From positions 165,634-229,633 of the forward strand of contig JAGCDZ010000100.1 of NCBI GenBank assembly GCA_017650905.1: a stretch of DNA of 64,000 bases. The letters are read 5' to 3'. Below are positions 13,518 through 43,735 of the stretch, one piece after another. Origin of the DNA: Prevotella sp. GTDB lineage: Bacteria > Bacteroidota > Bacteroidia > Bacteroidales > Bacteroidaceae. The translations under genes were made by a program, and so were the position numbers. A model generated the notes under the pieces. It searched no databases. It was not told the origin of the DNA and was given only the letters and a program-made list of their open reading frames with translations. Each line of letters opens with the position of its first letter. The first letter of the stretch is position 1.

Positions 13518-13576
13518 TTCAAATCATTGACATACCTCAAGAAGTAGAAAAAACGCACCAAAACGTCTGTAAGTCA

Positions 13577-13608
13577 TTTTGTCCACCTATTAAATTGTTT
13601 TGTCCACC
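13577..13608 (+). promoter_or_regulatory. Direct-repeat operator upstream of susC
   Basis: TTTTGTCCACC occurs twice, at 13577-13587 and 13598-13608, exactly 21 bases apart (two helical turns), with an inverted GTGGAC at 13620-13625. The repeats end just upstream of the susC -7 element. Direct half-sites at this spacing are typical of AraC-family activators, so the regulator gene next door is the likely binder (inference). Confidence 0.65.
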
Positions 13609-13628
13609 CTCATTCGAGTGTGGACCAT

Positions 13629-13636
13629 TAATTTTG
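13629..13636 (+). promoter_or_regulatory. -7 promoter element for the susC operon
   Basis: TAATTTTG, 47 bases upstream of the susC ATG; matches TAnnTTTG. Confidence 0.65.
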
Positions 13637-13683
13637 CAGCCAGATTTCTATCTAATTAATTTCTAAACTAAAAGCAATTAACA

Positions 13684-16902: not shown

Positions 16903-16960
16903 GAAGAATGAAAGAATGAAAAAATGAAGTAATGAAAAAATGAAAATAATGAAGGTTATG
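16903..16960 (+). repeat. AATGAAA octamer-type repeat between susC and susD
   Basis: About six units (AATGAAAG, AATGAAAA, AATGAAGT, AATGAAAA, AATGAAAA, AATGAAGG) span the gap and the first codons of susD. Several in-frame and out-of-frame ATGAAA starts result, so the real start is uncertain. Confidence 0.75.
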
Positions 16961-18736: not shown

Positions 18737-18773
18737 TGCATAATATAAAAAAATAGGATAAATTGTAAAAGTT

Positions 18774-20771
18774 ATGAAGACTAATAAATATAATAAGGTA
18801 TTGGCAGGTGGCCGGTTGGTGCTCACCACCGTCTTCTCTTACCTCTTACTTCTTACCTCTTTCCTCTTTATGACTTCCTGTGAGGGTGGCGACCTGTATG
18901 GCATCGACTCACCTGACTGGATCTCTGCTAAAGCAGACTCCATCGCTGCTGAAAAGGCCAAGAATCAGGGTGGCGAAGAAGAAATCGAAGGTTTGGAAGA
19001 GGATGTGTATACCGTTGGAGCTACTGACTATTCTACAGGTTGGTGGGCTGCATTCTCTAAGTATTATCAGATTCCCGAGGGTGGAAAGTGGATCGTTCAG
19101 TTCAACCTGAATATCAATCCCAATGCTACGAACACCTATAAGAACTTTGCGCTCATCATCTGTAATGATGCAGACCGTGGTTCCAATAAGGAGTATGGTG
19201 CTATCCGCTACGACTTCCAGCCCACCGGAAACTCTGAATGGGGAGATTATATCGACCGTAGTCTTGCTACCAGTACATTGGAGTTTGCTACCGATACCGA
19301 TACAGGTGTCGATCAGCTCGGTGGTAAGGTGACGCTGACCATTGACCGCACAGGTGGTGGTCTGATTGTAACGATGACGAATGGTAAAGTGACGAAGACT
19401 TATACGCAGACATCGCCACTGGTCAATCTTAATGATGACGCTTCTAATACGACCATTCGTGCATTCCTGGTACCAGAGGGCTCCTATATTGACTTCATTG
19501 GCAGTACCATCGAACCTATTGGTGGCTTTACCTCTAAGGAGGATAAACTGCCTCTGTCGATGATGCTGAACGGCGTACCCAAGAAGGTTCTCCAGGGTAC
19601 GGATCTGCTTGAAGCCTTCGCCAACGTTACAGCTACGGTTGAGTTCGAACAGGCTGTGTCAAAGACCGTTTCTGCTACTGATCTGACCTTCCAGGCAGTT
19701 CCCGACATGTATTCGCTTGGTCAGAAGACGTTAGTGGCTGTCTATAACAAGAGCTATAAGGGTGAGAGTTGTGATCCTGTCATTGCAACGGCCAATTTCG
19801 AGATTGTCGACAAGATGTACACTTCTCTCGGTGCTACTGATAACTCATCTGGTTGGTGGTCTGTTCACTCTGAGAAGATTAAGGTGAATCCGGGCGAGAC
19901 CTTTGTCAGCACTTTCACAAACTACACCAATGGTGGCGGTAACTGGAACAACTTCGTGGTTTGCCTCACCAATGAGGACGGTACCTTCGAGTATGGTATC
20001 CTGCGTGCTGACAACTGGGGCTGGGGAACCGGCTGGGAAGGTGGCGAATTAGCCTCGAAGTGTATACCCAGTGGTGGTCAGGCTGACTGGGCTGCATGGC
20101 TCGCTGCTATGGATGGTGCCAAGGTGACTGTCTATGTGACCAATAATGGCAATGGAACCTGCGATGTCAGATGTGTTATGCTGGGCAACGATGGTGTTAC
20201 CTACTATCAGGACTACATCGGCCTGAATACCGTAACGGATCCAAATAACTTCTACTTCCACTTCACAGTAGATGCATGTCACCTCGAGTTTGACAATGTG
20301 CTCGGTGCTGAGGATAACTCTACTGGCTGGTGGGGTGCTCACTCTGAGAAGATTCAGGTGCCTGCTGGCCAGACATACACGACACGATTCAAGAACTATA
20401 CCAACGGTGGTGGCAACTGGAACAACTTCGTGGTTTGCCTCACCAATGGGGATGGCACATTCGAGTATGGTATCCTGCGTGCTGACAACTGGGGCTGGGG
20501 AACCGGTTGGGAAGGTGCCGAACTGGGTTCGAAGTGTACACCGAGTGGTGGTCAGGCTGATTGGGGCGCATGGCTCTCAGCCATGGACGATGCTTTAGTG
20601 ACGGTCTCTGTCACAAATAACGGTAATGGTACAGCTGATGTCAGGTGTGTCATGTTGGGCAACGACGGTGTTACCTACTATCAGGATTACATCGGCTTGA
20701 ACACTGTTAACGATGCCAATGACTTCTGGTTCCACTTTACGGTTGATAGCTGTCATTTGGTATTTGAATAG
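18774..20771 (+). CDS. Surface lipoprotein with three homologous beta-domains (SusE-position glycan-binding protein)
   Basis: 665 residues. The lipobox FLFMTSCEGG gives an acylated Cys near residue 36, then an acidic linker. Three related domains follow, beginning VGATDYSTGWWAAFS (about 81), LGATDNSSGWWSVHS (about 352) and LGAEDNSTGWWGAHS (about 510); an Ig-like or Big_3-like segment (LNGVPKKVLQGTDLLE) lies between the first and second. The aromatic-rich repeats (GGGNWNNFVVCLTN, RADNWGWGTGWEG) suggest carbohydrate binding. It is the third gene of the susC operon, the place usually held by a surface glycan-binding protein. Domains two and three are nearly identical at DNA level, with a 474-base offset. 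No known catalytic motif was found. Confidence 0.8.
   Translation: MKTNKYNKVLAGGRLVLTTVFSYLLLLTSFLFMTSCEGGDLYGIDSPDWISAKADSIAAEKAKNQGGEEEIEGLEEDVYTVGATDYSTGWWAAFSKYYQIPEGGKWIVQFNLNINPNATNTYKNFALIICNDADRGSNKEYGAIRYDFQPTGNSEWGDYIDRSLATSTLEFATDTDTGVDQLGGKVTLTIDRTGGGLIVTMTNGKVTKTYTQTSPLVNLNDDASNTTIRAFLVPEGSYIDFIGSTIEPIGGFTSKEDKLPLSMMLNGVPKKVLQGTDLLEAFANVTATVEFEQAVSKTVSATDLTFQAVPDMYSLGQKTLVAVYNKSYKGESCDPVIATANFEIVDKMYTSLGATDNSSGWWSVHSEKIKVNPGETFVSTFTNYTNGGGNWNNFVVCLTNEDGTFEYGILRADNWGWGTGWEGGELASKCIPSGGQADWAAWLAAMDGAKVTVYVTNNGNGTCDVRCVMLGNDGVTYYQDYIGLNTVTDPNNFYFHFTVDACHLEFDNVLGAEDNSTGWWGAHSEKIQVPAGQTYTTRFKNYTNGGGNWNNFVVCLTNGDGTFEYGILRADNWGWGTGWEGAELGSKCTPSGGQADWGAWLSAMDDALVTVSVTNNGNGTADVRCVMLGNDGVTYYQDYIGLNTVNDANDFWFHFTVDSCHLVFE
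18836..18869 (+). repeat. TCTTACC heptamers encoding a lipoprotein signal peptide
   Basis: Units TCTTACC, TCTTACT, TCTTACC and TCTTTCC, then TCTTTAT, encode SYLLLLTSFLF. This is almost the same array as in susD. Confidence 0.7.
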
Positions 20772-20820
20772 AATCGTGGCGAGAGGTAAGAGAATAGTGA
20801 TATTAAAAGAAAAAAGAAAA

Positions 20821-22653
20821 ATGATGAAGACAAATAAGTATCATACTAAAAAGTATAATAATGTATTGGTAGGAGTAATCTCTCACCTCTTATCATATCT
20901 CTTACCTCTCACCTCTTACCTCTTGCTCTGCAGCGCCTACACGCTTAAGCGTGTAAGCGTGCATGACCCGAGCATCGTGTGGGAACCAGCGTCCCAGACG
21001 TATTACATCTTCGGCTCCCACCGTGCTGCTGCGAAGACGACCGATCTGATGAGCTGGACGTCGTTTCAGGCTCCTTGGGCAACAGCTTCAAGCACGAATG
21101 CTACCAACAGTGCTGCCTTCACCATTCCGCAGGTGACGAAGGTGAAGAAGGGCGGGGTGGAATATGACCTCAACTTCAATGCATTTAATTGGTCGAAACG
21201 CGGTAGCAATGGTTATAACGTCGACGGAAACATGTGGGCGCCCGATGTCATCTGGAACAAACAGATGCAGAAATGGTGCATGTATCTGAGTGTGAATGGC
21301 GACAATTGGTATTCGAGCATCATCCTGCTGACTGCTGACAAGATTACTGGCCCCTATCGCTATCAGGCACCAGTGGTGATAAGTGGATTCCATACTGGCA
21401 CAGCCTATAAGGACACCGATTTGGAACTCGTTATTGGTACACAGGCATCGCTGCCAAGCCGTTATAAAGCTCCTTGGGCTTCTACCCAGAAAGCCAGTTT
21501 TCCAAACTGTATCGACCCCTGTGTGTTCTATGACGAAGAGGGCAAGCTATGGATGTCGTATGGCTCATGGAGCGGTGGTATCTGGATGTTGGAACTTGAT
21601 GAGAATACCGGCTTACGCGACTATGATGTTACCTATGCAACTAACAATATTAGTGATCCGTATTTCGGGACGAAGATTGCCGGTGGGTTCTACGTGTCAG
21701 GCGAGGCCAGCTATATCGAGTATATCAACGGCTATTATTATCTGTTTGTCACATACGGCGGACTGGCTGCGGGTGGTAATGCCAACGACTATAACAATGG
21801 TGGCTACCAGATGCGTGTCTTCCGCTCCCAGAATCCCGATGGCCCGTATAAAGACTCCCAGAGCCATGACGCTGTATTTACATCCTATCTGCTGAACTTT
21901 GGTCCAAATGAGAACGATGGCAATCGTGGCGTCAACATCTTCGGTGCCTACACCTCATGGGGGAATCAGGCCAAAGGCAACTATGGCGAGCGCTCACAAG
22001 GCCACAATTCCATCATTGCTGCTGAGGACGGACGTACCTATCTGGTGTATCACACTCGTTTTCAGAACTGGGGTGAGAGTCACCAGGTGCGTGTGCACCA
22101 GGTGTTCCAAAGCAAAAACGGCTGGTTGGTGGCTGCACCCTTTGAATATACGGGCGAACAGGTGACGAGTGCTGATATTGCCACGACACAGCAGATTGCT
22201 ACCGATAGGGTAGCAGGTAAGTACAAGTTGCTCACCCATCATTACAAACTGGATCACAGGAAGAAGGCGGCTGCCGAACCTGTAGATATCGAGTTAAAGA
22301 GCGACGGCACCATCAGTGGTGCTTCGTCCGGCACATGGAAAATAGAAGAAGGAACCTCTTATATCACACTGAAGATAGGCAGCACTTACTATCATGGTGT
22401 GATGGTGGAGCAGACCTTGGAACCAACCGACACAAAAACGCCTGCCTTTACGGCTGTTGCGGCTACGACGGGTGCTACCGTTTGGGGCTATCAGACCGAG
22501 GCCACCACGGGGATTGAAGATATTCGGGTAGATGATATCATTCACCTCTCACCTCTTACCCATCACCTATACGACCTGCAAGGTCGACGTATCGATTCGC
22601 CACACCACAAAGGCGTCTATATTCAAAATGGGAAGAAGTATCTTTTGAAATAA
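20821..22653 (+). CDS. GH43 endo-arabinanase with C-terminal barrel and sorting-like tag
   Basis: 610 residues from the ATG at 20821; the frame continues upstream but over the preceding gene. A signal segment of heptamer-encoded leucines ends near residue 38. The five-bladed GH43 propeller has D49 (VHDPSIV), WAPDVIW at 139, D232 (IDPCVFYD) and E295 (SGEASYI), the expected base, modulator and acid. The C-terminal part (VAGKYKLLTHHYKL, SDGTISGASSGTW) resembles the small barrel of extracellular endo-1,5-alpha-arabinanases. The last residues (YDLQGRRI, GVYIQNGKKYLLK) form a tag seen on other exported Prevotella proteins. It should cut arabinan outside the cell or at the surface. The heptamer repeat also interrupts the coding sequence just before the tag. 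Confidence 0.88.
   Translation: MMKTNKYHTKKYNNVLVGVISHLLSYLLPLTSYLLLCSAYTLKRVSVHDPSIVWEPASQTYYIFGSHRAAAKTTDLMSWTSFQAPWATASSTNATNSAAFTIPQVTKVKKGGVEYDLNFNAFNWSKRGSNGYNVDGNMWAPDVIWNKQMQKWCMYLSVNGDNWYSSIILLTADKITGPYRYQAPVVISGFHTGTAYKDTDLELVIGTQASLPSRYKAPWASTQKASFPNCIDPCVFYDEEGKLWMSYGSWSGGIWMLELDENTGLRDYDVTYATNNISDPYFGTKIAGGFYVSGEASYIEYINGYYYLFVTYGGLAAGGNANDYNNGGYQMRVFRSQNPDGPYKDSQSHDAVFTSYLLNFGPNENDGNRGVNIFGAYTSWGNQAKGNYGERSQGHNSIIAAEDGRTYLVYHTRFQNWGESHQVRVHQVFQSKNGWLVAAPFEYTGEQVTSADIATTQQIATDRVAGKYKLLTHHYKLDHRKKAAAEPVDIELKSDGTISGASSGTWKIEEGTSYITLKIGSTYYHGVMVEQTLEPTDTKTPAFTAVAATTGATVWGYQTEATTGIEDIRVDDIIHLSPLTHHLYDLQGRRIDSPHHKGVYIQNGKKYLLK
20880..20928 (+). repeat. CTTACCT heptamers encoding the GH43 signal peptide
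   Basis: Seven units (CTCTCAC, CTCTTAT, CATATCT, CTTACCT, CTCACCT, CTTACCT, CTTGCTC) encode LLSYLLPLTSYLLL. Confidence 0.7.
22542..22570 (+). repeat. CTCACCT heptamers near the GH43 C-terminus
   Basis: Units TTCACCT, CTCACCT, CTTACCC and ATCACCT encode HLSPLTHHL, directly before the C-terminal tag; the same heptamer family as in the signal peptides. Confidence 0.6.
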
Positions 22654-22683
22654 AAAACGAACCACATACTACTTAAATTATAT

Positions 22684-23727
22684 ATGAGGAAACTTGTTTT
22701 TCCCTTGATGTTGATTGTCTCCTGTGCCGTGATGGCACAGGGGCAACGGCATCGCTTTCCAAGAGAGGCATTCACAACGGAGACACCTATGGTGCACGAT
22801 CCTGTGATGGCTTCCGAAAATGAGACCTACTACATTTTTGCTACCGGTATGGGTATCCAGAAGATGACCTCGAAAGACCGAAAGAGCTGGACGGTGCATC
22901 CTGATCCGGTGATGAGTGTCATCCCGAAGTGGACACATGACTCCGTGCCAGGATTCCGTAGCCATGTCTGGGCGCCGGATGTGATACAGTGGCATGGCCG
23001 CTGGTGGCTCGCCTATAGCTGCAGCACCTTCGGACGTAACGGTTCGGCCATCGGTCTGCTCTCCTGTCGCTCCTTGGCCCAAGGCCTATGGGAAGATGAG
23101 GGTTGCATCGTGGCTTCAAAGGAAAAACGTGACAATTGGAATGCAATTGATCCCAACTTCGTCATCGACGACAATGACCAGCCTTGGCTTGTCTGGGGTT
23201 CCTTCTGGGACGGCATTCAGATGGTTCGTCTTGATACGACGATGCATATTGCCAAGGGCGAACAGCCGCGCACCATCGCTCGCCGATTCAATCTGAACAG
23301 TCAGGCGAGCAAGAATGCGCTTCCGATAAATCCTAACCCACCCAAGAATCCGACTTCTGATTATGCTGGCCCCAATGCCATTGAGGCGCCGTTTATTTTT
23401 AAGCACGACGGCTGGTATTATCTGTTTGTTTCATGGGACTATTGCTGTCAGGGTGCGAAGAGTAATTATCGCGTGGCTGTAGGTCGCAGTAAGACGGTTA
23501 CGGGTCCCTATCTTGACAGTAAGGGCATTGATATGCGTTATGGTGGTGGTAACCTCTTCCTCGAAGGCGATAAGAAGACGTATGAGGCTGCCGGTCATAG
23601 CGCCGCTTACCATCTGGATGGCGAGGACATCTTCATCTGTCATGGCTATAGTGTAGCCCAGGAAGGTGCTTCTGTCCTCATCCAGCGTCCCATCCGTTGG
23701 ACATCCGACGGCTGGCCCAAATTATAA
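22684..23727 (+). CDS. GH43 arabinan endo-1,5-alpha-L-arabinosidase (secreted)
   Basis: 347 residues with a signal peptide cut near residue 19 (CAVMAQG). The GH43 catalytic acids are D39 (MVHDPVM), D156 (AIDPNFV) and E234 (IEAPFIF), with HVWAPDVIQW near 97; spacing and length match the single-domain arabinanases. It has no lipobox, so it is probably periplasmic. It follows the larger GH43 by 30 bases, suggesting that imported arabino-oligosaccharides are cut further here. It ends seven bases from the convergent chromate-transporter gene, without an obvious hairpin. Confidence 0.92.
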   Translation: MRKLVFPLMLIVSCAVMAQGQRHRFPREAFTTETPMVHDPVMASENETYYIFATGMGIQKMTSKDRKSWTVHPDPVMSVIPKWTHDSVPGFRSHVWAPDVIQWHGRWWLAYSCSTFGRNGSAIGLLSCRSLAQGLWEDEGCIVASKEKRDNWNAIDPNFVIDDNDQPWLVWGSFWDGIQMVRLDTTMHIAKGEQPRTIARRFNLNSQASKNALPINPNPPKNPTSDYAGPNAIEAPFIFKHDGWYYLFVSWDYCCQGAKSNYRVAVGRSKTVTGPYLDSKGIDMRYGGGNLFLEGDKKTYEAAGHSAAYHLDGEDIFICHGYSVAQEGASVLIQRPIRWTSDGWPKL

Positions 23728-31385: not shown

Positions 31386-32240
31386 ATGAAAAAAAGTTTG
31401 ATTTTGATAGCCGTGTCTGCTCTGATATTGAGCAGTTGCGCTAGTAAAAAAGATTTGGTAGAATGCCAGACAACTAACAAGACCCTCAATGAGAGTCTAC
31501 AGAGTGCCAAGGAGGATCTGGCTGCCAAAAATGCCCGTATCGCTAGTTTGGAGGAGCAGCAGCGTGGTATGCAGCAGATGCTTAAGAATGCAGAGGATAA
31601 GTATGCCAAATTGCAGGCATCGCTCGACAAGAGTCTGACAAACGCTTCGCAGAACAATATCTCTATCGAGAAACTCGTTGATCAGATTAATGAGTCGAAC
31701 CAGTACATCCGTCACCTGGTGGAGGTAAAGTCGAAAAGTGACTCACTCAACATGGTGCTCACAAACAACCTGACGCGTTCGCTCACGAAGGAAGAGATGA
31801 AGGAGGTTGACGTACAGGTACTAAAGGGTGTGGTCTATATCTCATTGGCCGATAACATGCTTTACAAGAGTGGTTCGTATGAGATTAATGCCCGTGCAGC
31901 CGAAACACTGTCGAAGATTGCTAAGATCATCAAAGACTATAAGGATTATGACGTGCTGATCGAGGGTAACACCGACAATGTGCCCATCTCCAAGACAAAC
32001 ATCCGTAATAACTGGGACCTCTCGGCCCTGCGTGCATCGAGTGTTGTACAGGCTTTGCAGAACGACTACGGTGTGGATCCGAAGCGTCTGACAGCCGGTG
32101 GTCGTGGTGAGTATAATCCCATTGCTACCAACGATACCGAGGTCGGCAAGCAGCGTAACCGTCGTACCCAAATCATCATCACACCGAAACTCGACGAGTT
32201 TATGGATCTGATTGGCGAGGCTCCCGATACAGACAAATAA
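31386..32240 (+). CDS. OmpA-family peptidoglycan-binding lipoprotein
   Basis: 284 residues. The lipobox LILSSCASK gives acylated Cys near residue 18. A long coiled coil follows (about 30-120: SLQSAKEDLAAKNARIASLEE), then a C-terminal OmpA domain (about 155-275) with IEGNTDNVPISK, RASSVVQAL and GRGEYNPIATNDTEVGKQRNRRTQI, the residues that grip meso-diaminopimelate. It ties the outer membrane to the wall. The gene has its own promoter and is followed by a 27-base gap before the GH43-like fusion gene, so some co-transcription is possible. Confidence 0.92.
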   Translation: MKKSLILIAVSALILSSCASKKDLVECQTTNKTLNESLQSAKEDLAAKNARIASLEEQQRGMQQMLKNAEDKYAKLQASLDKSLTNASQNNISIEKLVDQINESNQYIRHLVEVKSKSDSLNMVLTNNLTRSLTKEEMKEVDVQVLKGVVYISLADNMLYKSGSYEINARAAETLSKIAKIIKDYKDYDVLIEGNTDNVPISKTNIRNNWDLSALRASSVVQALQNDYGVDPKRLTAGGRGEYNPIATNDTEVGKQRNRRTQIIITPKLDEFMDLIGEAPDTDK

Positions 32241-32267: not shown

Positions 32268-34511
32268 ATGGGGACTATTGGCAGGATAGCGACGATGATT
32301 GGTTGGATGGCAATAGTCCTCTTGTTTCACTTTTTTACTTTTTCTCCCGCTCAAGCACAGAATATCCAAAAAGGCGACTATGGCTATCTGTATTGCCACA
32401 TGAGCGATCGTGGGCAATGGACGGCTTTTGCATTGAGTCGTGACGGCTACCATTACGAGGATGTCCTTGGTGGTGAACCTGTGATGGATGTCAAAGAGCA
32501 TTCCCGTATCGAGGGCGGTCAGCGCGATGCCTACATTACCCGAAGTTGGGATGGCAATGGCTTTGTGATGGTGACGACGGATATGAACAACGGTATGACC
32601 AAAGCTCTGGGCAAGAAGAACGAATGGGACAATTATGGCATTGACCTGCTTAAGAGTGATGACCTCATTCATTGGACCAGCGTCTCTTTTGACTATCGTA
32701 AGGGTGATGCTATTTTCTGCGATCCACAGTCGCCGAGTCCTTATCAGGATTGGAGTACTATCAACCGCGTGTGGGCTCCGCAGATTTTCTGGGATCCCCA
32801 TTATGTTTGGCCCGATGGTGATAAAGGCGGTTACATGATTTATTACTCAATGTGGAACCGTGATGAGGAAGGTTATGACCGAATGTATTTTTCTTATGCC
32901 GATAAGTCATTCACCAAACTGACAAAGCCCCATATCCTTTTTGACTGGGGCTATGCAACCATCGATGCTGATATCAACTATTTGGAAAGCGACGGTCTTT
33001 ACCACATGCTGATAAAGAAGGAAGGTGGAAAGCCCGGCATCTATACGGCTACTTCAGAACATCTGACCTATGGTTGGGGTGAGCCAGTTGAGGATGATTA
33101 TGTCAGTTTTGAGGGTAAGAAGAAGTGCGAAGGGTCGAGTGCCTTTCAGTTGATAGGTGACGATACCTGGCGTGTGGCTTATATCGAGTATTCTTCCAAG
33201 CCCCGGCACTACCGTATCTGCAAGGCCGACAAGTATCTGCGCAATTTCTCCGATCCCGTTGATATTGAGGGTGTGACAGGACCGCAGCACGGTTCTTTCA
33301 TGCGACTGACCAAAGAGGAATACAAACGTTTGCAAAAATGGGGTTCCGTACCTGTTATCCATCGTTTGGAGGCTGAGGTTATTGATGGCGCTGTGTTACA
33401 TACCAATCGTTATCTTGAGGGTTATAATCCCGAAGTGCGTACGATGAATCAATATTTTACCACGCGCCTGAAGTATTCTTTTATGCCCTCACCCGATTCT
33501 GAGGAGGCCCGTATCTATAAGGGTGCCTATCAGGGTGTAGGTTTAGGTTATCATCATCTGAACAATCAGATTGGCAACCCCTTTTCCGCCTATCTTTTTC
33601 AGGGAGCCACCATTAAAACCCTGTCACCGAAACTCGCCCTCAACTATGAATGGGATTTTGGTGTGGCCTATGGCTGGCATTCCTATAATGAGACCGACCG
33701 GGTATCGAATCATGTGATCGGTTCAAAGATGACGGCCTATATGGATTTCGGCGTCTATCTGCGATGGATGCTTTCCCGACAGTTAGACCTGAATATCGGC
33801 CTCACGGCCTCTCATTTCAGCAATGGCAATACGTCGATGCCGAATGCAGGTTTGAATGTCGCTTCGGCGAAATTGTCACTAGCCTATTATATCGACCGAC
33901 CAGAGCAGCAGCCTGCCGATGGTCCGTTACCCTTTTTCCAAAAGTATTGGAGCACCGACGTTGTCGTGTTTGGCGGATGGAAGCGCAGAGGAGCGGAAAC
34001 GGCTCTCGGTTCGTATGCTCTGTCAGGGACCTATGGTGTGGTGGGTGTCAACGTGAACCCTATGTACAACCTGAACCATTGGTTGAATGTGGGTGCTTCC
34101 TTGGATTTGTATTATGACCATAGTGCCAACCTCAGAACAGAGGATCCCGCGTTGCCACCTGACAGTGGTGAGACTGGAGAGGAAAATGAGGGTGAGACAG
34201 AGACCACAGATGTGCCGTCTATCTCTCCAGAAGATCTTCTTCGTGCCCCCTCTTGGTATCGTCAGGCCACAGCTGGTCTTTCAGTTCGTGCGGAATATGT
34301 GATGCCGTATTTCACGATTAATTTCGGCATCGGCCACAATTTGTTTAATGCGGGCAGTGCCCATTTCCGCGGTTTTTATGAAATCCTGGCTTTGAAAGCA
34401 GCCCTTTCACCCAAAGTTTTCCTTCATATCGGTTATAGCCTTTATAGTTTTCAATATCCCAACAACTTGATGTTGGGCGTCGGCTATCGTTTTGGAGCCC
34501 GTCGGAAATAG
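32268..34511 (+). CDS. Fusion of a GH43-like propeller with a PagL-like outer-membrane barrel
   Basis: 747 residues in one open frame. Signal peptide to about residue 30 (FTFSPAQAQ). Residues about 30-360 resemble a family 43 five-bladed propeller: QRDAYI near 87 with the base Asp, VWAPQIFWD near 170, CEGSSAFQL near 286 with the acid Glu. From about 370 the sequence changes to beta-barrel strands (GVGLGYHHLNNQIG, LNYEWDFGVAYGW) and contains ASHFSNGN with H516 and S518, the HxSN pair of PagL-type lipid A 3-O-deacylases (acyloxyacyl hydrolase family). The Glu of the PagL triad is not at the usual distance. The C-terminus (LMLGVGYRFGARRK) has a barrel-like aromatic end. The barrel would place the sugar-acting domain at the outer membrane; both activities are inferred. 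Confidence 0.8.
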   Translation: MGTIGRIATMIGWMAIVLLFHFFTFSPAQAQNIQKGDYGYLYCHMSDRGQWTAFALSRDGYHYEDVLGGEPVMDVKEHSRIEGGQRDAYITRSWDGNGFVMVTTDMNNGMTKALGKKNEWDNYGIDLLKSDDLIHWTSVSFDYRKGDAIFCDPQSPSPYQDWSTINRVWAPQIFWDPHYVWPDGDKGGYMIYYSMWNRDEEGYDRMYFSYADKSFTKLTKPHILFDWGYATIDADINYLESDGLYHMLIKKEGGKPGIYTATSEHLTYGWGEPVEDDYVSFEGKKKCEGSSAFQLIGDDTWRVAYIEYSSKPRHYRICKADKYLRNFSDPVDIEGVTGPQHGSFMRLTKEEYKRLQKWGSVPVIHRLEAEVIDGAVLHTNRYLEGYNPEVRTMNQYFTTRLKYSFMPSPDSEEARIYKGAYQGVGLGYHHLNNQIGNPFSAYLFQGATIKTLSPKLALNYEWDFGVAYGWHSYNETDRVSNHVIGSKMTAYMDFGVYLRWMLSRQLDLNIGLTASHFSNGNTSMPNAGLNVASAKLSLAYYIDRPEQQPADGPLPFFQKYWSTDVVVFGGWKRRGAETALGSYALSGTYGVVGVNVNPMYNLNHWLNVGASLDLYYDHSANLRTEDPALPPDSGETGEENEGETETTDVPSISPEDLLRAPSWYRQATAGLSVRAEYVMPYFTINFGIGHNLFNAGSAHFRGFYEILALKAALSPKVFLHIGYSLYSFQYPNNLMLGVGYRFGARRK

Positions 34512-34836: not shown

Positions 34837-37308
34837 ATGAAAAGGATTTTGATTTCCCTACTCGCCATCGTGGCGACGCTTGGCTCGGAAGCTGCCGAGC
34901 CTTTTGTGGTTTTCCAGACATCTGCAGACGTTCTTTCCCTGCAAGGTGCAAGTGTCTCTTTCGATAGCCGTGAGCATAGTTGTGTTCAGAGAGCTGTCGC
35001 CAACCTCCAGAAGGATTTTGAGAAGGTCACTCAGAAGCAACTTCCTGTTTCGGAGAGTGCGCGGATCCTCGTGGGTACGGTCGGTGTTAACAAGCAGATC
35101 GACCAATGGGTGAAAAAAGGCGAGCTCAGCAACTTGAAAGGCAAAACCGAAAAATACATCATCAAGACCATTGGCGACCAACTCGTCATTGCAGGTAGTG
35201 ACAAGCGTGGAACCGTGTTCGGTATCTACGAACTGACTAGGCAGATGGGTGTCTCACCTTGGTATTACTGGGCAGATGTTCCTGTTGAACAACACGAAGC
35301 ATTATATATAAAGAAAGGTGAATACACCGATGGCGAACCTGCAGTGCGCTATCGTGGTATCTTCCTCAACGACGAGGCACCCTGTCTGACCACTTGGGTG
35401 AAGAACACTTTCGGTACTGATTATGGTGATCATCATTTCTATGAGAAGGTCTTTGAGCTCATTCTCCGTCTGAAGGGTAATTTTCTTTGGCCGGCTATGT
35501 GGGGTTGGGCCTTCTATGCTGACGATCCTGAGAACTCGAAGGTGGCTGATGAGATGGGTGTCATTATCGGAACCTCCCACCATGAGCCAATGGCCCGCAA
35601 CCATCAGGAATACGCCCGTCGCCGTAATGAATGGGGTGCCTGGAACTATCAGACCAACAAGGAGAATCTTGACCGTTTCTTCCGGGAAGGTATCGAGCGC
35701 ATGAAAGGCACCGACGACATTGTGACCATCGGTATGCGTGGTGATGGCGATGAGGCCATGAGTGCGACGGCTGATACCAAGTTGTTGGAAAATATTATCG
35801 ACAACCAGCGCAGGATTATCAAAAATGTGACGGGCAAGTCCGCCGACAAGACCACCCAAGTGTGGGCCTTGTATAAGGAGGTACAGGACTATTACGACGC
35901 AGGCCTTCGTGTGCCCGACGATGTGATGATCCTGATCAGCGACGACAACTGGGGCGACATTCGTCGTGTACCCACCGCTGCCGAGCGTAGCCGCAAGGGC
36001 GGATGGGGTATCTACTACCACGTGGACTATGTAGGGGCACCCCGTAACACGAAGTGGCTCAACGTCACTCAGACGCAGCAGATGTTTGAACAATTGTCGC
36101 TTGCCTACGACTTCGGCATCCAGCGTATGTGGATTCTCAATGTCGGCGACCTTAAGCCGATGGAGTATCCCATCCAGTTGTTCATGGATATGGCATGGAG
36201 TCCGAAGGATTATACCGTCCCGACCGTTATCGATCATACCCGCCGTTTCTTCAGTTCTGTATTCAGCAGTGTAATCGCAGAAGAAGCCTCAGATATATAC
36301 AACCGTAACTGCCAGTACATGGCCCGCGTCACGCCCGAGATGCTCGATGCACGTACCTATAATATTGAGACGGGCGAATGGCGACAGGTGGCTGATGACT
36401 ATCAAAGGCTGGAACTGCGTGCTCTGCGTCTCTACGACCAGATTCCTATTGAGGCCCGCGACTTCTATCGTCAGCTGGTGCTCTTCCCTGTGCAGGCAAT
36501 GGCCAATCTCTACGATATGTACTATGCCCAGGCCATGAACCAGAAAATGGCCGCCAGCAAGAATCCTGATGCCAATGCGTGGGCCTATAAGGTGAGGGAC
36601 TGCTTCCGTCGCGACTCGCTGCTCTGTGCGGCTTATAATACCGATATCGCTGGTGGTAAATGGAATGGTATGATGATCCAAAAGCACATCGGCTATCGCT
36701 CGTGGAATGATAATTTCCGTGCCGACATGCTGCCGCGTATTACTTCTGTCGCCGACAGCACAACAGGTGGTTATACCTTTACTCCCAGCAATGGTTATGT
36801 GGCTATGGAAGCAGAGCACTACTATAGTGCTAAGGCACCCGAGGGTTTGCAGTGGACAGTTTATCCCTATTACGGCCGTACCCGTAGTGCTGTTGCCTTG
36901 ACACCCTATACGAAGTCTGTAGGCGACGCAGCATTGACCTACCAGTTTACATTGCCTGCTGACGTGAAGTCCGTAAAAGTTCATGTGATTGTGAAGTCTA
37001 CGCTCGACTTCCTCGATGTCGGTGGTTTCGAGAGCGCCGTCAGCCTCGATGGCGGAGAAGCCCAGGTCGTGAACTTCAACAAGACGCTTGTCGACCGCCA
37101 GCCTTATATGTACTCTGACTATTATCCCGCTGTTGCACGTCGCGTGGTGGAGAAGGTAGTGGAGTTGCCGGTGCAGAAAGATGGTGTGCATAATCTGACG
37201 TTACAGCCTAAGCATCCTGGTATCGTCTTCGAGAAGATTGTGGTCGATGCTGGTGGCTATCAATCACAATATCTCTTTGGTGAGGAGTCGCCCTGCAATC
37301 GCCTCTGA
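34837..37308 (+). CDS. GH115 xylan alpha-1,2-glucuronidase
   Basis: 823 residues with a signal peptide (LAIVATLGSEAAE). The family marks are plain: an N-terminal alpha/beta domain (GSDKRGTVFGIYELTRQMG near 120), RYRGIFLNDEAPCLTTW near 170, LILRLKGNFLWPAMW near 210, GVIIGTSHHEPMARN near 245, GMRGDGDEAM near 300, LLISDDNWGDIRR near 365 and GGWGIYYHVDYVGAPRNTKW near 390. The enzyme removes (4-O-methyl)glucuronic acid side chains from xylan without prior backbone cleavage. Own promoter; it stands beside the GH43-like fusion but in a separate transcription unit. A strong 20-bp hairpin follows. Confidence 0.93.
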   Translation: MKRILISLLAIVATLGSEAAEPFVVFQTSADVLSLQGASVSFDSREHSCVQRAVANLQKDFEKVTQKQLPVSESARILVGTVGVNKQIDQWVKKGELSNLKGKTEKYIIKTIGDQLVIAGSDKRGTVFGIYELTRQMGVSPWYYWADVPVEQHEALYIKKGEYTDGEPAVRYRGIFLNDEAPCLTTWVKNTFGTDYGDHHFYEKVFELILRLKGNFLWPAMWGWAFYADDPENSKVADEMGVIIGTSHHEPMARNHQEYARRRNEWGAWNYQTNKENLDRFFREGIERMKGTDDIVTIGMRGDGDEAMSATADTKLLENIIDNQRRIIKNVTGKSADKTTQVWALYKEVQDYYDAGLRVPDDVMILISDDNWGDIRRVPTAAERSRKGGWGIYYHVDYVGAPRNTKWLNVTQTQQMFEQLSLAYDFGIQRMWILNVGDLKPMEYPIQLFMDMAWSPKDYTVPTVIDHTRRFFSSVFSSVIAEEASDIYNRNCQYMARVTPEMLDARTYNIETGEWRQVADDYQRLELRALRLYDQIPIEARDFYRQLVLFPVQAMANLYDMYYAQAMNQKMAASKNPDANAWAYKVRDCFRRDSLLCAAYNTDIAGGKWNGMMIQKHIGYRSWNDNFRADMLPRITSVADSTTGGYTFTPSNGYVAMEAEHYYSAKAPEGLQWTVYPYYGRTRSAVALTPYTKSVGDAALTYQFTLPADVKSVKVHVIVKSTLDFLDVGGFESAVSLDGGEAQVVNFNKTLVDRQPYMYSDYYPAVARRVVEKVVELPVQKDGVHNLTLQPKHPGIVFEKIVVDAGGYQSQYLFGEESPCNRL

Positions 37309-37317
37309 GCATTGAAC

Positions 37318-37370
37318 ATTATTTTGGACAGAAATTTTATATGATTATTCAAATTTCTGTCCAAAATAAT
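37318..37370 (+). terminator. Strong terminator after GH115
   Basis: A perfect 20-bp stem (ATTATTTTGGACAGAAATTT and its complement) with a 13-base AT-rich loop, followed by ATCTTTTTTA. The unusually long AT-rich stem could also bind a protein as DNA. Confidence 0.85.
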
Positions 37371-37413
37371 ATCTTTTTTACCTTTTTACCTTCTTTCTTA
37401 TTTTCTTTTTTAT

Positions 37414-37421
37414 TATCTTTG
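37414..37421 (+). promoter_or_regulatory. -7 promoter element for the exported-protein operon
   Basis: TATCTTTG, 35 bases upstream of the ATG at 37456, preceded by a pyrimidine-rich stretch. Confidence 0.6.
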
Positions 37422-37455
37422 CATCCGAAAAGGTAAGTAATTAATAAATATCACT

Positions 37456-38259
37456 ATGAGAATGATGAAAAAACTCCTTATCGCCGTTCTTCTGATGCAG
37501 GTATCAGTAGCGGCTGTAGCACAGGACAAGACATTGTTGATCTCTGAGTCTGGACTTCCCTACACCGCCCAGACATGGTTTGCCTATGGTTCAGAGAGCA
37601 TCGACCAGAAAGACATTGTAGCATGTTGGGATCAGGGTAAGCGTATTGTGACGGCAGCCTACACGGGCGAAGGATGGTTTATCATTATGGCTGGCAACAC
37701 GCCTTATATGATGCAGACCTACCTTGTCAGTGATGCCTGGCCCGAGGAGTGGATTGCCCAGAAAACGCAAGAGGGCTACGCCATTACTTCGATGTCGCGC
37801 AGTCACAGCCAGTGGTTGGTGGTGCTCTCACAGGGCAGCGGCATCAGCCGTCAGATTATCTGGCAGAACACATGGGATAACCTCGCCCCTTGGATTGCCG
37901 AGCAGAAAAATAATGGCTATAGTATCACCGACCTTGCCTTCGACGGCAAGCGGTGGCTTGTCGTTATGAGCCAGAACTCCAAGTTCGTGTCGCAGGGCTA
38001 CTTCATATCCGACACCAACAACGATATGATGCGCAGCATCCAGTCGGAAGTTTGGAATCGTGGCTTCAACCTGCATCAGGTGGCCTATGGCGGTGGCAAA
38101 TACATCGTCACCTTCGGTAACTATGCCTATGGCGATGATCGCTTCCAGAACCTTCAGGTCAGTCCCGACAATCCCAAGGACTATATTCGTGAGCAGTGGG
38201 AGAAAGGCATCTGTATCGCCTATATTGGTGGCGGCATCGTTACGCCCACTAAACGCTGA
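37456..38259 (+). CDS. Exported protein with DUF7477-like repeated WxxVxS segments
   Basis: 267 residues; signal peptide cut after AVAQ (near residue 22). The mature part repeats a pattern of a turn, an aromatic strand and a W-I-GY motif: WFIIMAGNTPY, EEWIAQKTQEGYAITSM, QWLVVLSQGSG, PWIAEQKNNGYSITDL, RWLVVMSQNSK, VWNRGFNLHQVAYGGGKY. This resembles the propeller-like DUF7477 domain known from some plant kinases and bacterial exported proteins. No catalytic residues are evident, and binding is more likely than catalysis. First gene of an operon; the next start is two bases after its stop. Confidence 0.6.
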   Translation: MRMMKKLLIAVLLMQVSVAAVAQDKTLLISESGLPYTAQTWFAYGSESIDQKDIVACWDQGKRIVTAAYTGEGWFIIMAGNTPYMMQTYLVSDAWPEEWIAQKTQEGYAITSMSRSHSQWLVVLSQGSGISRQIIWQNTWDNLAPWIAEQKNNGYSITDLAFDGKRWLVVMSQNSKFVSQGYFISDTNNDMMRSIQSEVWNRGFNLHQVAYGGGKYIVTFGNYAYGDDRFQNLQVSPDNPKDYIREQWEKGICIAYIGGGIVTPTKR

Positions 38260-38261
38260 CG

Positions 38262-39683
38262 ATGGGCAATACCTTTTTAAAGACGATGTTGTTGACGCTC
38301 GCATTATGGGGCGTGACAATGGTTTGCAGCGCAGAGATATCTGCGCTGAAACCACGTTTAGTGGTGTGTACCGACATTGCCCCAGCTGACGTGGAACCAG
38401 ACGATATGGAGTCGATGGTTCACCTGATGGTCTATGCTGATATGTTTGAGATTGAGGCGATAATCACTTCAGTGGGTTGGAACTGCGACCCCTTTCCGAA
38501 GGATTGGTCACAGTATCTGTTTCGCGTGATTGGTGCCTACGCCAAGGATGTACCGAACTTGATGAAGCGTTCCGGACAAAAGAAGTTTCTCTCGATAAAA
38601 AAAGAAAACACGAGCCAAAAGATTGGCTATTGGCCAAGTGCAGAATATATTAATAGTCGTGCCGTGATGGGAAGCACGTCTGGTGGTATCCGCTCTATTG
38701 GCGAACATAACGATTCGCCAGGCAGCGATTTACTCATCCGCCTGGCTGATGAAGATGATCCTCGTCCCATCTATGTAGCGGCATGGGGTGGTGCCAATAC
38801 CCTGGCGCAAGCCATCTGGCGCGTCAAACAGACAAGGACACTAGAGGAACTGAAACGTTTCGTGCGCAAGTTCCGCCTTTATACGATTACCGATCAGGAC
38901 ATGGACTACGCTCATCGCATGGATCGCGCCCGCAGTTCTCACATGTGGTTGCGTCGGGAATTCAAGGACGACCTGCAGTTCATTTGGGATGAAGGTACCT
39001 GGCAGGAACAGTGCGAACTGGGCAAGCGTCATTGGACCAAGCATCAGCAGTATATTCAAGGTAAAGGAGCCCTTGGCAAGGAATATCCCAATTACAAATG
39101 GGGTGTTGAGGGCGACACACCGAGTTTTCTCTATGTGTTGCCTAACGGTCTCAACGACCCCGAGGACCCTTCGCAGGCTGGTTGGGCAGGCTATCATGAG
39201 CGCGGTCTTTGTCCCGATTCGCTTACCACGGCCTGGACCAGTTGGCAGGAACCTACCCGTAGTATCAGCGTGGGCTATAAGCAGCATTTCTATTCCGATG
39301 AACTCAACGATTTTATTGCCCGCATGCAGTGGGCTGATGAGGGCAAGGGCAATCATAATCCCATCGTTGTCGTAAATGCTCACAAAGGTCCGTCGCCTTT
39401 GGTATTTCATGCCAAAGCTGGTGAGACGATTCGTCTGGATGCCTCATATTCAAAAGATCCTGATGACAACACCATCCATTTCCTATGGTGGCAACAACCA
39501 GAGATAGGAAAAACGAAGCTTACCATCGACGATGCGGAGAGGAGTATCATCAACGTCCGCATTCCTGTCGATGCCGCAGGCCAGACGTTGCACCTTGTTT
39601 GCGAAGTAAGCGATGATGGAGCCAACCATCTGAAGTCGTATCAAAGGATTATCGTCCATACAATTAAAGAAGTAAGAAGATGA
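38262..39683 (+). CDS. DUF1593 (nucleoside-hydrolase-like) exported protein
   Basis: 473 residues with an N-terminal signal segment (LALWGVTMVCSAE). The segment VVCTDIAPADVEPDDMESM near residue 38 mimics the DxDxxxDD calcium site of nucleoside hydrolases, and YVAAWGGANTLAQAIW near 178 and LYTITDQDM near 210 are other DUF1593 marks. The C-terminus (VVVNAHKGPSPLVFHAKAGETI, DDNTIHFLWWQQPE) forms an Ig/PKD-like domain. These proteins are common in plant-polymer degraders and are presumed to hydrolyse a glycosidic or ester bond on cell-wall material; no reaction is established. Start two bases after the preceding stop. Confidence 0.8.
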   Translation: MGNTFLKTMLLTLALWGVTMVCSAEISALKPRLVVCTDIAPADVEPDDMESMVHLMVYADMFEIEAIITSVGWNCDPFPKDWSQYLFRVIGAYAKDVPNLMKRSGQKKFLSIKKENTSQKIGYWPSAEYINSRAVMGSTSGGIRSIGEHNDSPGSDLLIRLADEDDPRPIYVAAWGGANTLAQAIWRVKQTRTLEELKRFVRKFRLYTITDQDMDYAHRMDRARSSHMWLRREFKDDLQFIWDEGTWQEQCELGKRHWTKHQQYIQGKGALGKEYPNYKWGVEGDTPSFLYVLPNGLNDPEDPSQAGWAGYHERGLCPDSLTTAWTSWQEPTRSISVGYKQHFYSDELNDFIARMQWADEGKGNHNPIVVVNAHKGPSPLVFHAKAGETIRLDASYSKDPDDNTIHFLWWQQPEIGKTKLTIDDAERSIINVRIPVDAAGQTLHLVCEVSDDGANHLKSYQRIIVHTIKEVRR

Positions 39684-39699
39684 TTTATGATATATAAAA

Positions 39700-40836
39700 A
39701 TGAATTTAATGATGAAAAAGATTATTAGTTTATTAGCATTGGCTTTGGTGACTGTCATGACGTCACAGGCTCAGGAGTCTATTGAGCAGTTCACGGTGGC
39801 TACACTCAATGTCGATGGACTGCCCCAGAAACTATTGGTCATAAATGTCAATGCTGATGGTCCTGGCGATACCGGTACGGCTCGTATTGGTAAGTATCTG
39901 GTGAAGAAAGGCTACGACTTGGTGATGATGCAGGAAGACTTCAGCTACCACGGCGTACTCTCCGTATGTCTTGAGGACGACTACAAAATGGACGAGTGGT
40001 CAGGTACTTTATATTTGCTCGACGGCCTCCGCAAGATAGACTTTCTGCACTTGCAGAATCATCGCTTCGAGTGTGATGGATTGCTGACTGCGTGGAAGAA
40101 CGATCTGCAGGTTACGTCTGCAGTCCGCACGCCCTGGACGCAGAATTTTGGCAAGTTTAGCCATGCATTGGATGAGATGGTGACCAAGGGCTTCCGCCGT
40201 TACGAGGTGACCCTGCGCAGCGGTGACCGCATTGTGGTCTACAATATGCACATGGATGCCACTGATGACAAAGATGAAGCAGAAGGAAAAGCCGGTCCTG
40301 ACCATGATGCCCGTATGGCACAGTGGGCACAGCTGAAAGATGACGTGCTTCGGCATCTCGACTCCCGCCCTGTCATTATCACTGGTGACATGAACAGCCT
40401 CTATGGCCGTGACGATGTGAAAGGCCAGTTCATCGATGCCATCAACCAGAGCGGACGCGGCACGGCCTCTGACGTGTGGGTAGAACTACAACATAGTGGT
40501 ATCTATCCCTCCGAGAGCACAGAAGCAACTTCCAACGATGAGACGCTCGACAAGATTATTTATATCAATCCTACGATGGGTACAAACATCAAGCCCGTAG
40601 CCATTACTATCGACCGCGAAGGTTATCTTTACGATGGTAAACCGTTGGGCGACCACTTCCCTGTCGCTGCCACATTCCAGATGACACGAAAAGGCACTGG
40701 TATTGACGAGCAGAACAGTACGACAACTGGCGAAAGCAAGTATTATAACCTTAACGGCCAGCATGTCAGTCAGCCTCAGAAGGGCATATACATCGAGCAG
40801 CAGGGCAAGAAGGCAGGAAAGCGTATCATCAAGTAA
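39700..40836 (+). CDS. Exported endonuclease/exonuclease/phosphatase-fold hydrolase with C-terminal tag
   Basis: 378 residues. Signal peptide cut after TSQAQ. The EEP metal and catalytic motifs follow in order: ATLNVDGLP near 31, VMMQEDFSYHG near 74, NMHMDATDD near 185, GDMNSLYG near 229 and the final GDHFPVAATF near 318 with the catalytic Asp-His pair. The substrate might be a phosphodiester (sphingomyelin-like lipid, nucleic acid or phosphosugar). The last 30 residues (YYNLNGQHVSQPQKGIYI, GKKAGKRIIK) form the same tag type as on the 610-residue GH43, pointing to shared export or anchoring. Confidence 0.8.
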   Translation: MNLMMKKIISLLALALVTVMTSQAQESIEQFTVATLNVDGLPQKLLVINVNADGPGDTGTARIGKYLVKKGYDLVMMQEDFSYHGVLSVCLEDDYKMDEWSGTLYLLDGLRKIDFLHLQNHRFECDGLLTAWKNDLQVTSAVRTPWTQNFGKFSHALDEMVTKGFRRYEVTLRSGDRIVVYNMHMDATDDKDEAEGKAGPDHDARMAQWAQLKDDVLRHLDSRPVIITGDMNSLYGRDDVKGQFIDAINQSGRGTASDVWVELQHSGIYPSESTEATSNDETLDKIIYINPTMGTNIKPVAITIDREGYLYDGKPLGDHFPVAATFQMTRKGTGIDEQNSTTTGESKYYNLNGQHVSQPQKGIYIEQQGKKAGKRIIK

Positions 40837-40848
40837 TCAGAAGGAGGA

Positions 40849-42567
40849 ATGAGAATGAAAAAGATATTATTCATACTGATTGTTTTTCAGCTTTCGCTGA
40901 CAAACTCCAAGGCACAGGACGCTGCCTACACGATACTCTCCGAACGCGACACGACCGTCAAGGCCCAATTTAATGGCATCTCATTAGGTTCCCGCGAGGT
41001 GAGGCACATCGTCTATGAATACCCCTCGACCGATGCTGACGGAAATGCCGTGAAAGTCAGCGGTATCATCATGATTCCCTCCGATGTGGTCGATGGCTCG
41101 ACACCTTGCGACGGCGTCATCGTGTATAACCATCCCACCATTGGCTCCCCGAAGGATGCTCCTTCACAGGGCGGCGATACATTCGAAACCATCGGCATTG
41201 CTTTAGCCAGTCCGTTGAGGCCCAACTACATCGTTGTGGCTTCCGACTACATTGGCTACGGCTCGTCTATTGACAGCAATGTTTCCTATATCAGTGGCGA
41301 TACCAATAGCCGTAATGCATTGGACGGATTGCAGGCTGCCCGTCAGTTGTTTGCTGACAGACAGATTCCACAGGGCAAGTTCCTGTTCAACCTCGGATAT
41401 TCGCAGGGAGGCACTGTGAGCATGTATGCCGGACGACTGACCGATACTGACGCGAAGTACAAGAGCATCCGCTTTGACAAGACTTTCTCGGGTGGTGGTC
41501 CACTCGACTTCGAAGGCATTTATACTGCGTACGTCGAGCGCGATGCTTGCGACGACATTGCCGATGTGGTGCTCATGCTCATCTCTGTCAACGAGAACTA
41601 CCATTTGGGTATCGACTACAAGGACATGTTCAAGGAACCGATGGCGTCGCATGCGATGGAATATTTCAAGTCTAAGGACAAGAAAGTCGTCGCCGACATT
41701 GGTGTCATGTCGATGGATTCTATCAGTGAGGTACTGACACCCGCTTTCATGGACCTGAAAAACGATATGACTAAGGTACTCAGGGCTAAGTTGAAGGAAA
41801 TCAGCATCACTGAAGGCTGGGAACCTGACATCACGAAACGCTACTACATCGAGCACTCCCGACACGACAACTACGTACCCATACAGAGTGCACGCGCCAT
41901 TATTCCATGGATGCGCGGGAAGGGATTCACCCCCAGTATCGTGCCAGGCAAGAGCAACCTACAGACCTGTACCGTCGTCTTCAAACTGAAGCACCAACAG
42001 TCGGGCATCGTGTGGGCCATTCAGACCTTCGCGGCCATCCAGTTCTGGCCTGTGCTCTATTATGAGGGCGAGCAGAATCGCTACTTCCACGATGTGGTTG
42101 GCGACCTGAACCTCATGAAGGTCATCAAATATCTGGAAAGCTGGGGCATCGACTTGCGCAAACTTACGCAGTCGGCCCCTGAAGTCAAGGCCGATCTGGA
42201 GGCAAGTATCGCTGACGGCTCTATTCAGCCTGACGGCAGCGTCCGTCAGCTAGCCAACGTGAGGCGGGCCAGTTTCCTCGACATCATTGGCGATATCAGC
42301 AATTTCCTGGCGAAACTCGATCTGACGCTGACTGATGCCTACGAGATGCTCGATGACTCTGGAATTTCCATCCTTGATATTATGGCGGTCATCGACTACA
42401 TCAATGGAACATCCGCTGCTCGAGTCAAAGATGGTGACAGCTTATTGGCGCCCCTTGAGAGCAAACTCGAAGCTCCCCTCTATCTATTGCGTTCCTACGA
42501 ACAGACGTTAGCTAACTGGTATCTTTTGGGCGGCTACGACGTCAACTATAGCCTTTGGGGAATGTAG
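40849..42567 (+). CDS. Exported alpha/beta hydrolase (secretory lipase/esterase-like)
   Basis: 572 residues with a signal peptide (QLSLTNSKAQD). An alpha/beta hydrolase core runs to about 420: VIVYNHPTIGSP, VASDYIGYGSS near 132, nucleophile S185 in LGYSQGGTVS, and D340 in HSRHDNYVP, with a His later (YFHDVVGD). The chain continues with about 130 residues of helices (ISNFLAKLDLTL) without recognised motifs, so it is longer than usual lipases. It lies 12 bases after the nuclease-like gene. Ester substrates on plant or host lipids are possible. Confidence 0.8.
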   Translation: MRMKKILFILIVFQLSLTNSKAQDAAYTILSERDTTVKAQFNGISLGSREVRHIVYEYPSTDADGNAVKVSGIIMIPSDVVDGSTPCDGVIVYNHPTIGSPKDAPSQGGDTFETIGIALASPLRPNYIVVASDYIGYGSSIDSNVSYISGDTNSRNALDGLQAARQLFADRQIPQGKFLFNLGYSQGGTVSMYAGRLTDTDAKYKSIRFDKTFSGGGPLDFEGIYTAYVERDACDDIADVVLMLISVNENYHLGIDYKDMFKEPMASHAMEYFKSKDKKVVADIGVMSMDSISEVLTPAFMDLKNDMTKVLRAKLKEISITEGWEPDITKRYYIEHSRHDNYVPIQSARAIIPWMRGKGFTPSIVPGKSNLQTCTVVFKLKHQQSGIVWAIQTFAAIQFWPVLYYEGEQNRYFHDVVGDLNLMKVIKYLESWGIDLRKLTQSAPEVKADLEASIADGSIQPDGSVRQLANVRRASFLDIIGDISNFLAKLDLTLTDAYEMLDDSGISILDIMAVIDYINGTSAARVKDGDSLLAPLESKLEAPLYLLRSYEQTLANWYLLGGYDVNYSLWGM

Positions 42568-42592
42568 ACACTCATCTTCGTAATATTACATA

Positions 42593-43735
42593 ATGATAGA
42601 CATGGCAATTCTTGCAAGAATCATGAGAACAATAATAACAATAGCAATGATGTTGGTGGTTATCCCGACATCAGCACAAGAGAACCTGCAGAAGCAGGCA
42701 AGCAACAAGGAAGTAGAAAAGGTTTTCACAACAGTGAAGGAACTTCCGATAACGAGCGTGAAAAACCAGTATCGTAGCGGCACGTGCTGGGACTTTTCCA
42801 CGTTGGGCTATTTCGAGAGTGAGATTCTGCGAAAAACGGGAAAGACCTACGACCTATGTGAGATGTTTGTGGTGAACAAAGACTATATGGATTGCGCTAC
42901 TCACTATGTTCGTATGCACGGATATAGCCAGATTTCGGAAGGCGGCTCCTGTGACGACGTGCTGGAAGTAATCCGTCAGCACGGCATCTGTCCAGAGAAC
43001 GCTATGCCGGCACCTGGTTCGCTGACGGGTGACTCGCTCGCTAATTTCAAAGTGTTCTTCCCGGAATTGGAGCGGATGGTGAGGAGCATCGTCAAGAAAG
43101 ATGCTAAAGAGCCCCTAATCCACTGGCAGGACAGTGTTCAGACGATTATAGAGAAATATGTAGGCCGTTGTCCTGAGTCGTTCGTGTATGAAGGAAAAAC
43201 ATACACGCCGAAGTCGTTTGCCGAAAGCCTTGGACTTGATTTCGACGACTATGTGAGTCTGACTAGCTATATGCATCACCCGTTCAACAAGTGGTTCATC
43301 ATCGAAGCTCCTTATAAATGGCGGCTAAAGCCCAGCTACAACATCCCTATCGAACAGCTGATGAATGTGCTCGACAAGGCGCTGGATGCCGGTTACACGG
43401 TGGCTTGGGGCGGTGATGTGACGGGTGACTTCACCCGTACAGGACTGGCCATGCTGCCCGATGGAGTGATGCCTACACAAGAACTACGTCAGGAGCAGTG
43501 GAATGACTGGCGTTTCACTTATGATCATGTGATGCTCATCTACGGCAAGGCTACTGACGAGCAGGGCAAACCCTACTACATGGTGAAGAACTCATGGGGC
43601 AAGAGTGGACAATATAAGGGTATCTGGTATATGTCACGTGATTATATGTCACTGAACACCACCTACCTGTTCCTCAACCGTCACGCACTCTCAGAGGATT
43701 TACGTAAAGCTATCAAAATATCCGATTTCCACTGA
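42593..43735 (+). CDS. C1 papain-family peptidase (bleomycin-hydrolase/PepC-like), exported
   Basis: 380 residues, with ATG starts at 42593, 42602 or 42623; the last gives the cleanest signal peptide (MRTIITIAMMLVVIPTSAQ). Catalytic residues are C65 in RSGTCWDFST, H312 in YDHVMLIYG and N333 in VKNSWGKSG (numbering from 42593). The Gln of the oxyanion hole lies in VKNQYRSG. The fold and spacing fit the C1B branch, like Bacteroidetes aminopeptidases C that are exported rather than cytosolic. It is the last of five genes in the operon, with a terminator about 70 bases downstream. Confidence 0.9.
   Translation: MIDMAILARIMRTIITIAMMLVVIPTSAQENLQKQASNKEVEKVFTTVKELPITSVKNQYRSGTCWDFSTLGYFESEILRKTGKTYDLCEMFVVNKDYMDCATHYVRMHGYSQISEGGSCDDVLEVIRQHGICPENAMPAPGSLTGDSLANFKVFFPELERMVRSIVKKDAKEPLIHWQDSVQTIIEKYVGRCPESFVYEGKTYTPKSFAESLGLDFDDYVSLTSYMHHPFNKWFIIEAPYKWRLKPSYNIPIEQLMNVLDKALDAGYTVAWGGDVTGDFTRTGLAMLPDGVMPTQELRQEQWNDWRFTYDHVMLIYGKATDEQGKPYYMVKNSWGKSGQYKGIWYMSRDYMSLNTTYLFLNRHALSEDLRKAIKISDFH

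Follow-up and report, generated by a model that had tools for sequence, protein, structure and literature searches.

PagL is an eight-stranded outer-membrane barrel, with Glu140 of the structure 2ERV as the third residue of its catalytic site. The glycoside hydrolases of family 43 (GH43) and related propellers, including the solved structures 4qqs, 3kst and 3qef, share a five-bladed fold with Asp, Asp and Glu as candidate catalytic residues. In Salmonella PagL, His163 and Ser165 are reported to be essential (PMC4958258); for the Bacteroidota, PMC8003790 and PMC11784228 describe LpxZ (PGN_1123) of Porphyromonas gingivalis as a lipid A deacylase. No open-licence paper was found that mentions both glycoside hydrolase family 43 and PagL, and none of the titles and abstract openings listed pointed to a protein that combines them. 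A single Prevotella gene joins domains of these two kinds in the stretch of 64,000 nucleotides analyzed here (the window), where it and its nearest neighbors are arranged as follows.

31386..32240, + strand: OmpA-family protein with a lipoprotein-like start, 27 bp upstream of the fused gene
32268..34511, + strand: fused coding sequence of 747 aa, with signal peptide, GH43-like propeller and PagL-like barrel (open frame; same fusion in L050-L054)
32268..32357, + strand: predicted type I signal peptide, residues 1-30, ending ...SPAQA before QN (sequence read by eye)
32358..33341, + strand: GH43-like five-bladed propeller, residues 31-358 (4qqs profile match, model and structure matches)
32526..32528, + strand: D87, candidate general base, RDA/RDP motif (invariance; aligned to the 4qqs DP motif)
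32964..32966, + strand: D233, candidate pKa modulator, IDAD motif (invariance; aligned to the 4qqs IDA motif)
33129..33131, + strand: E288, candidate general acid, EG motif (invariance; role from motif order)
33342..33353, + strand: linker GSVP, residues 359-362 (alignment of six complete fusions)
33354..34508, + strand: PagL-like outer-membrane barrel, residues 363-747 (PF09411, 40-row alignment and low-confidence model)
33813..33857, + strand: H516-x-S518-N519-G520 ... P525 ... G528-x-N530 motif (barrel alignments)
34837..37308, + strand: GH115, the next gene downstream (conserved in L050-L054 and L091)

The fusion was confirmed to be real: the pairing of the domains is conserved, their combination is new, and both parts are of known kinds. 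An earlier note on this DNA had described one uninterrupted 747-codon frame uniting a sugar-acting type of propeller with a PagL-like outer-membrane barrel, and this description holds. The same architecture recurs elsewhere. In a scan of 84,980 species, with one genome per species and the best 80 of 200 returned relatives kept, five loci in Prevotella-type genomes (L050-L054) have the fused frame in full, at 87-93% identity, a sixth (L055) carries the same fusion interrupted by a contig end inside the barrel, and one (L091) has the barrel without the propeller; the remaining 73 have the propeller, with no barrel match at E<=1e-8 in the stretch examined. Including the window's own genome, the fusion is present in seven genomes, in one of them cut. 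The neighbors in L050-L054 are identical (purL, M1 peptidase, OmpA-family gene, fusion, GH115 and DUF7477). The record of L050 names water buffalo omasum as its source, and the RUG names of L052, L054 and L055 presumably denote rumen genomes.

Barrels of this kind are far more widespread than the fusion. Of 398 genomes searched in the genus, 45 contain the barrel at E<=1e-20; 41 are unfused (355-538 aa) and four are fused (741-748 aa), the latter all belonging to the fusion's own clade and three of them being the genomes of L050, L052 and L053. Within the family the barrel was found in 45 of 301 genomes at E<=1e-40, with the window's own alone being fused and the other 44 having frames of 398-522 aa, while in the order 265 of 393 genomes matched, with no second full-length match among the matches listed. 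PF09411 matches occurred in 207 of 296 genomes of the class and in 1 of 14 control genomes; among the class matches listed, open frames reached 473 aa, and longer ones are possible beyond these.

Pairwise dN/dS was computed across the 15 pairs formed by the six complete fused genes. It spans 0.012-0.035 in the propeller (dS 0.57-1.46); in the barrel it spans 0.056-0.115 over residues 365-660 and 0.021-0.158 over residues 680-745. These low values in both halves rule out a recent read-through or a pseudogene. Lone barrels gave 0.059-0.138 in the eight computable pairs out of 15 among six barrels, with dS saturated in seven of the eight and the sole unsaturated pair at 0.114. Compared with these lone barrels there is no sign that selection on the barrel relaxed after fusion, in what is a weak test given the mostly saturated dS.

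Two whole units were joined, with loss of the barrel's signal peptide, as indicated by where each half ends and begins: lone propellers terminate near the residue aligned with W358, and the fused barrel begins V-I-H-R or similar, like lone barrels past their signal peptide. The linker between the two is four residues long in five of the six complete fusions, where it reads GSVP or GSAP, and eight residues long in L053. The barrel half has no signal peptide of its own; the predicted one at the start of the protein, which by eye is without a lipobox cysteine, encompasses a helix at residues 2-22 of the predicted model. PF09411 was the sole family above cut-off in the fused protein, a PHROGs search with it gave no match, and the single protein, when compared with the PDB, yielded nothing beyond one chance match.

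The fold of the first half is clear. A propeller profile matched 4qqs in the PDB (E 2.7e-8), and the predicted model of this half is confident, with five blades and a resemblance to the solved GH43 enzymes 4qqs, 3kst and 3qef; the model of the barrel is of low confidence and mostly below pLDDT 50. Chains of GH32, GH130 and GH159 type were also among the profile and structure matches. The GH43-type acidic motifs pointed out earlier held up well, with D87, D233 and E288 invariant in 34 aligned propellers and also in 26 more divergent ones; their putative roles as base, pKa modulator and acid follow GH43 chemistry. These residues were placed from the sequence profile; the model and 4qqs align structurally from residue 34 onward, in another register, a mismatch that we note beside the quasi-symmetry of propellers. 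Alignments A1 and A3 misplaced the lone barrel of L091 onto the propeller, and L091 was excluded from the modeled alignment, A4. Unlike GH43 enzymes proper, the fused protein falls under the threshold of the Pfam GH43 model, PF04616, which did not match it at E<=1, and it is attached to a membrane barrel. Across the propeller family, at E<=0.01, PF04616 was matched by 15 of 26 members and GH32N by 16 of 26. Of the two profile searches proposed in the earlier note, the one for GH43 gave no match to this protein and the one for PF09411 did.

Judged by its sequence relatives, the propeller is a widely shuffled module. Lone or multidomain propellers such as those of L056 and L058 reach 84% identity over this half and, unlike the barrel fusion, stand alone (L056) or with other partners. 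Elsewhere the family is fused to GH43, GH43 plus GH43_C2, GH2, pectate lyase plus GH43, GDSL lipase or DUF4861 (L066, L085, L090, L099, L102, L120, L121 and L122).

The second half scored 31.9 bits against PF09411 (PagL), for which the curated cut-off is 23, and it resembles PagL further in its HxSN motif and in the PN.G that follows. It differs from PagL in its length (some 385 residues, where the 2erv chain has 150), in its attachment to a glycosidase-type domain and in having Asn in the column of Glu140. The H516-x-S518-N motif singled out in the earlier note is invariant in 40 of 40 aligned barrels, together with G520, P525, G528 and N530. In the alignment of the barrel profile to 2erv, H516 and S518 fall on H126 and S128, and N530 falls on E140; this match is weak (E 0.26, with kinesins beside it at E 0.19-0.35), and the alignment was used for motif placement alone. 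Twenty further barrels from across the class (L171-L190), hand-picked rather than drawn at random among the PF09411 class matches listed, all keep His and Ser and have an Asn 14 residues after the His. Their sites were located by His-x-Ser-Asn, so that the later Asn played no part in locating them, and the two sets overlap, at least G312 occurring in both. Asn can orient a His too, as in papain-type enzymes. The presence of Asn at the Glu140 column in 40 of 40 and 20 of 20 barrels marks a branch of the family and is no sign of a dead enzyme; the barrel keeps its family's own His-Ser-Asn pattern and, most likely, an acyl-hydrolase role.

In the low-confidence model, 13 strands lie between residues 421 and 742; the last barrel strand ends ...GVGYRF and is followed by a short tail. 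Residues 587-742 resemble OMP_b-brl at a score under the cut-off, and an NCBIfam search with 40 barrels gave no match.

Trees of the two halves suggest that the fusion most likely arose once, in one Prevotella clade. In the barrel tree (43 rows, with five duplicates left out as well as any row of no more than 33% identity or no more than about 250 aligned residues), the six complete fused barrels form one clade (100/100) with L091 as its sister, and these together adjoin a clade that holds L010 and L134-L138. In the propeller tree (96 rows, with duplicates left out as well as any row of no more than 55% identity or no more than about 300 aligned residues), the fused propellers, including the cut L055, likewise form one clade (100/100). 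The lone barrels of L091 and L010 are 68% and 58% identical, respectively, to the fused barrel half. The L091 locus, with purL, M1 peptidase, OmpA, the barrel alone and GH115, is the same place without the propeller. Like L091, the lone barrels of L010 and L134-L137 have their own signal peptide and no propeller and directly follow an OmpA-family gene, an arrangement that these five show among 27 lone-barrel loci (two of the 27 being copies of one place, and most being covered with about 1.5 kb on either side). An OmpA-family gene thus stands directly ahead of a barrel gene in several Prevotella, and its product may possibly be a partner of the barrel. The gap between OmpA and fusion is 27 bases in the window and 3 bases in L052-L054.

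The halves also occur apart. In L079 and L070 OmpA is followed by a lone propeller with no fusion, and by eye a hairpin with a T-run lies between the two genes (at about 5895-5930 and 2200-2230, respectively), a feature not seen in the fused loci inspected. Both halves are present on separate contigs in G480 and G743, and G528 has a barrel together with fragments of a broken propeller. The fused genomes examined, including the window's own (G000), yielded no further close copy of either half; several of the genomes are incomplete (G000, 71.6%; G657, 52%), and a separate second copy could have escaped notice. Some fused genomes hold propeller relatives at 33-35% identity.

A polysaccharide locus at 10527-23727 of the window, upstream of the fusion, comprises a hybrid two-component regulator-like gene, SusC-like and SusD-like genes, one unmatched protein and two GH43 enzymes. 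Downstream, at 34837-43735, a single strand encodes GH115, DUF7477, a Sde182-like protein, an endonuclease/exonuclease/phosphatase-like protein, a secretory-lipase-like protein and a C1-type peptidase; GH115 is the alpha-glucuronidase family. GH43 enzymes adjoin the lone propeller in three of five loci scanned (L059, L060 and L061), and in the other two (L074 and L104) no sugar enzyme was seen among the scanned neighbors. The GH43-like fold, the adjacent GH115, the GH43 enzymes beside lone propellers and the upstream SusC/SusD and GH43 locus make arabinose- or xylose-decorated hemicellulose fragments the likely substrates, a tie drawn from neighbors and fold.

We consider it fairly probable that the fusion, having arisen once, places a GH43-like glycosidase beneath the outer membrane on a PagL-like barrel, itself probably still functional. 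A complete secreted glycosidase would have been fused to a barrel, namely the one that follows the same OmpA-family gene in the nearest relatives, at the point where the mature barrel begins, and the glycosidase's signal peptide would have taken the place of the barrel's. The product would be exported by Sec via this signal peptide and then inserted by the BAM machinery. Outer-membrane barrels usually have both ends in the periplasm, which would put the propeller there too, close under the membrane, hanging by its linker of 4-8 residues at the periplasmic face. In that position its most likely task, shared with the product of the adjacent GH115 gene, would be to remove side chains of arabinose or xylose type from hemicellulose fragments that have been imported, and the barrel, probably retaining its ancestral acyl-hydrolase role, would be more than an anchor.

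Other accounts of the protein are conceivable. The suspicion, raised in the earlier note, that the barrel is a mere membrane anchor whose deacylase site died with the loss of the catalytic Glu draws on the Asn in the Glu140 column of the fused barrel. We hold it to be unlikely, if worth serious consideration: every barrel of both sets described above has the same Asn and keeps His and Ser, and the dN/dS of the fused barrel (0.056-0.115) lies within the lone-barrel range, itself based on eight of 15 pairs with mostly saturated dS. The missing Glu thus no longer hints at an inactive site. Type V autotransporters have a 12-stranded translocator barrel and a surface passenger, with the N-terminal soluble domain first; this order is that of the fused protein, and the 13 strands of its low-confidence model exceed the eight of PagL, so that the barrel might export the propeller to the cell surface for polysaccharide outside. 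This is more doubtful still, since lone members of 398-522 aa (44 of 45 family genomes) leave little passenger room and the linker is too short for spanning a pore.

A further possibility is that the two activities are coupled, the handling of glycan by the propeller controlling, or answering to, the remodeling of lipid A by the barrel. Both active-site patterns are intact in the six complete fused genes, as such coupling would have it; the propeller domain, however, is joined to several other partners in its relatives, so that the pairing with the barrel may carry no particular significance among many such fusions, and we regard coupling as improbable. An assembly or frameshift artefact joining two adjacent genes has next to no probability. 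The halves are indeed separate genes in some relatives, as such an artefact would predict, but the error-like junction that the earlier note had envisaged beside them was not found: the junction recurs in five other complete assemblies, purifying selection is strong on either side, and the barrel's signal peptide is gone, although loss of a stop codon or a shift of frame would have left it in place. The shared junction, the conserved neighbors and dN/dS rule out an assembly artefact, and we return to the reading of a periplasmic glycosidase on a barrel that probably still works.

The fusion is a kept domain architecture that unites two envelope functions, and the sister locus with the lone barrel, L091, offers a natural before-and-after pair for what the fusion adds. 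That the protein is a two-headed enzyme, with a periplasmic hemicellulose glycosidase and a membrane acyl hydrolase for lipid A or another lipid linking polysaccharide use to envelope remodeling, is a long shot; if true, the outer membrane might, for example, be adjusted where glycan enters, through a His-Ser-Asn site instead of the His-Ser-Glu of PagL. The sampled PagL-like barrels of the Bacteroidia carry Asn at the position of PagL's catalytic Glu, and with PagL-family matches in so many genomes of this class, the Asn pattern matters for the assignment of lipid A deacylases in gut bacteria.
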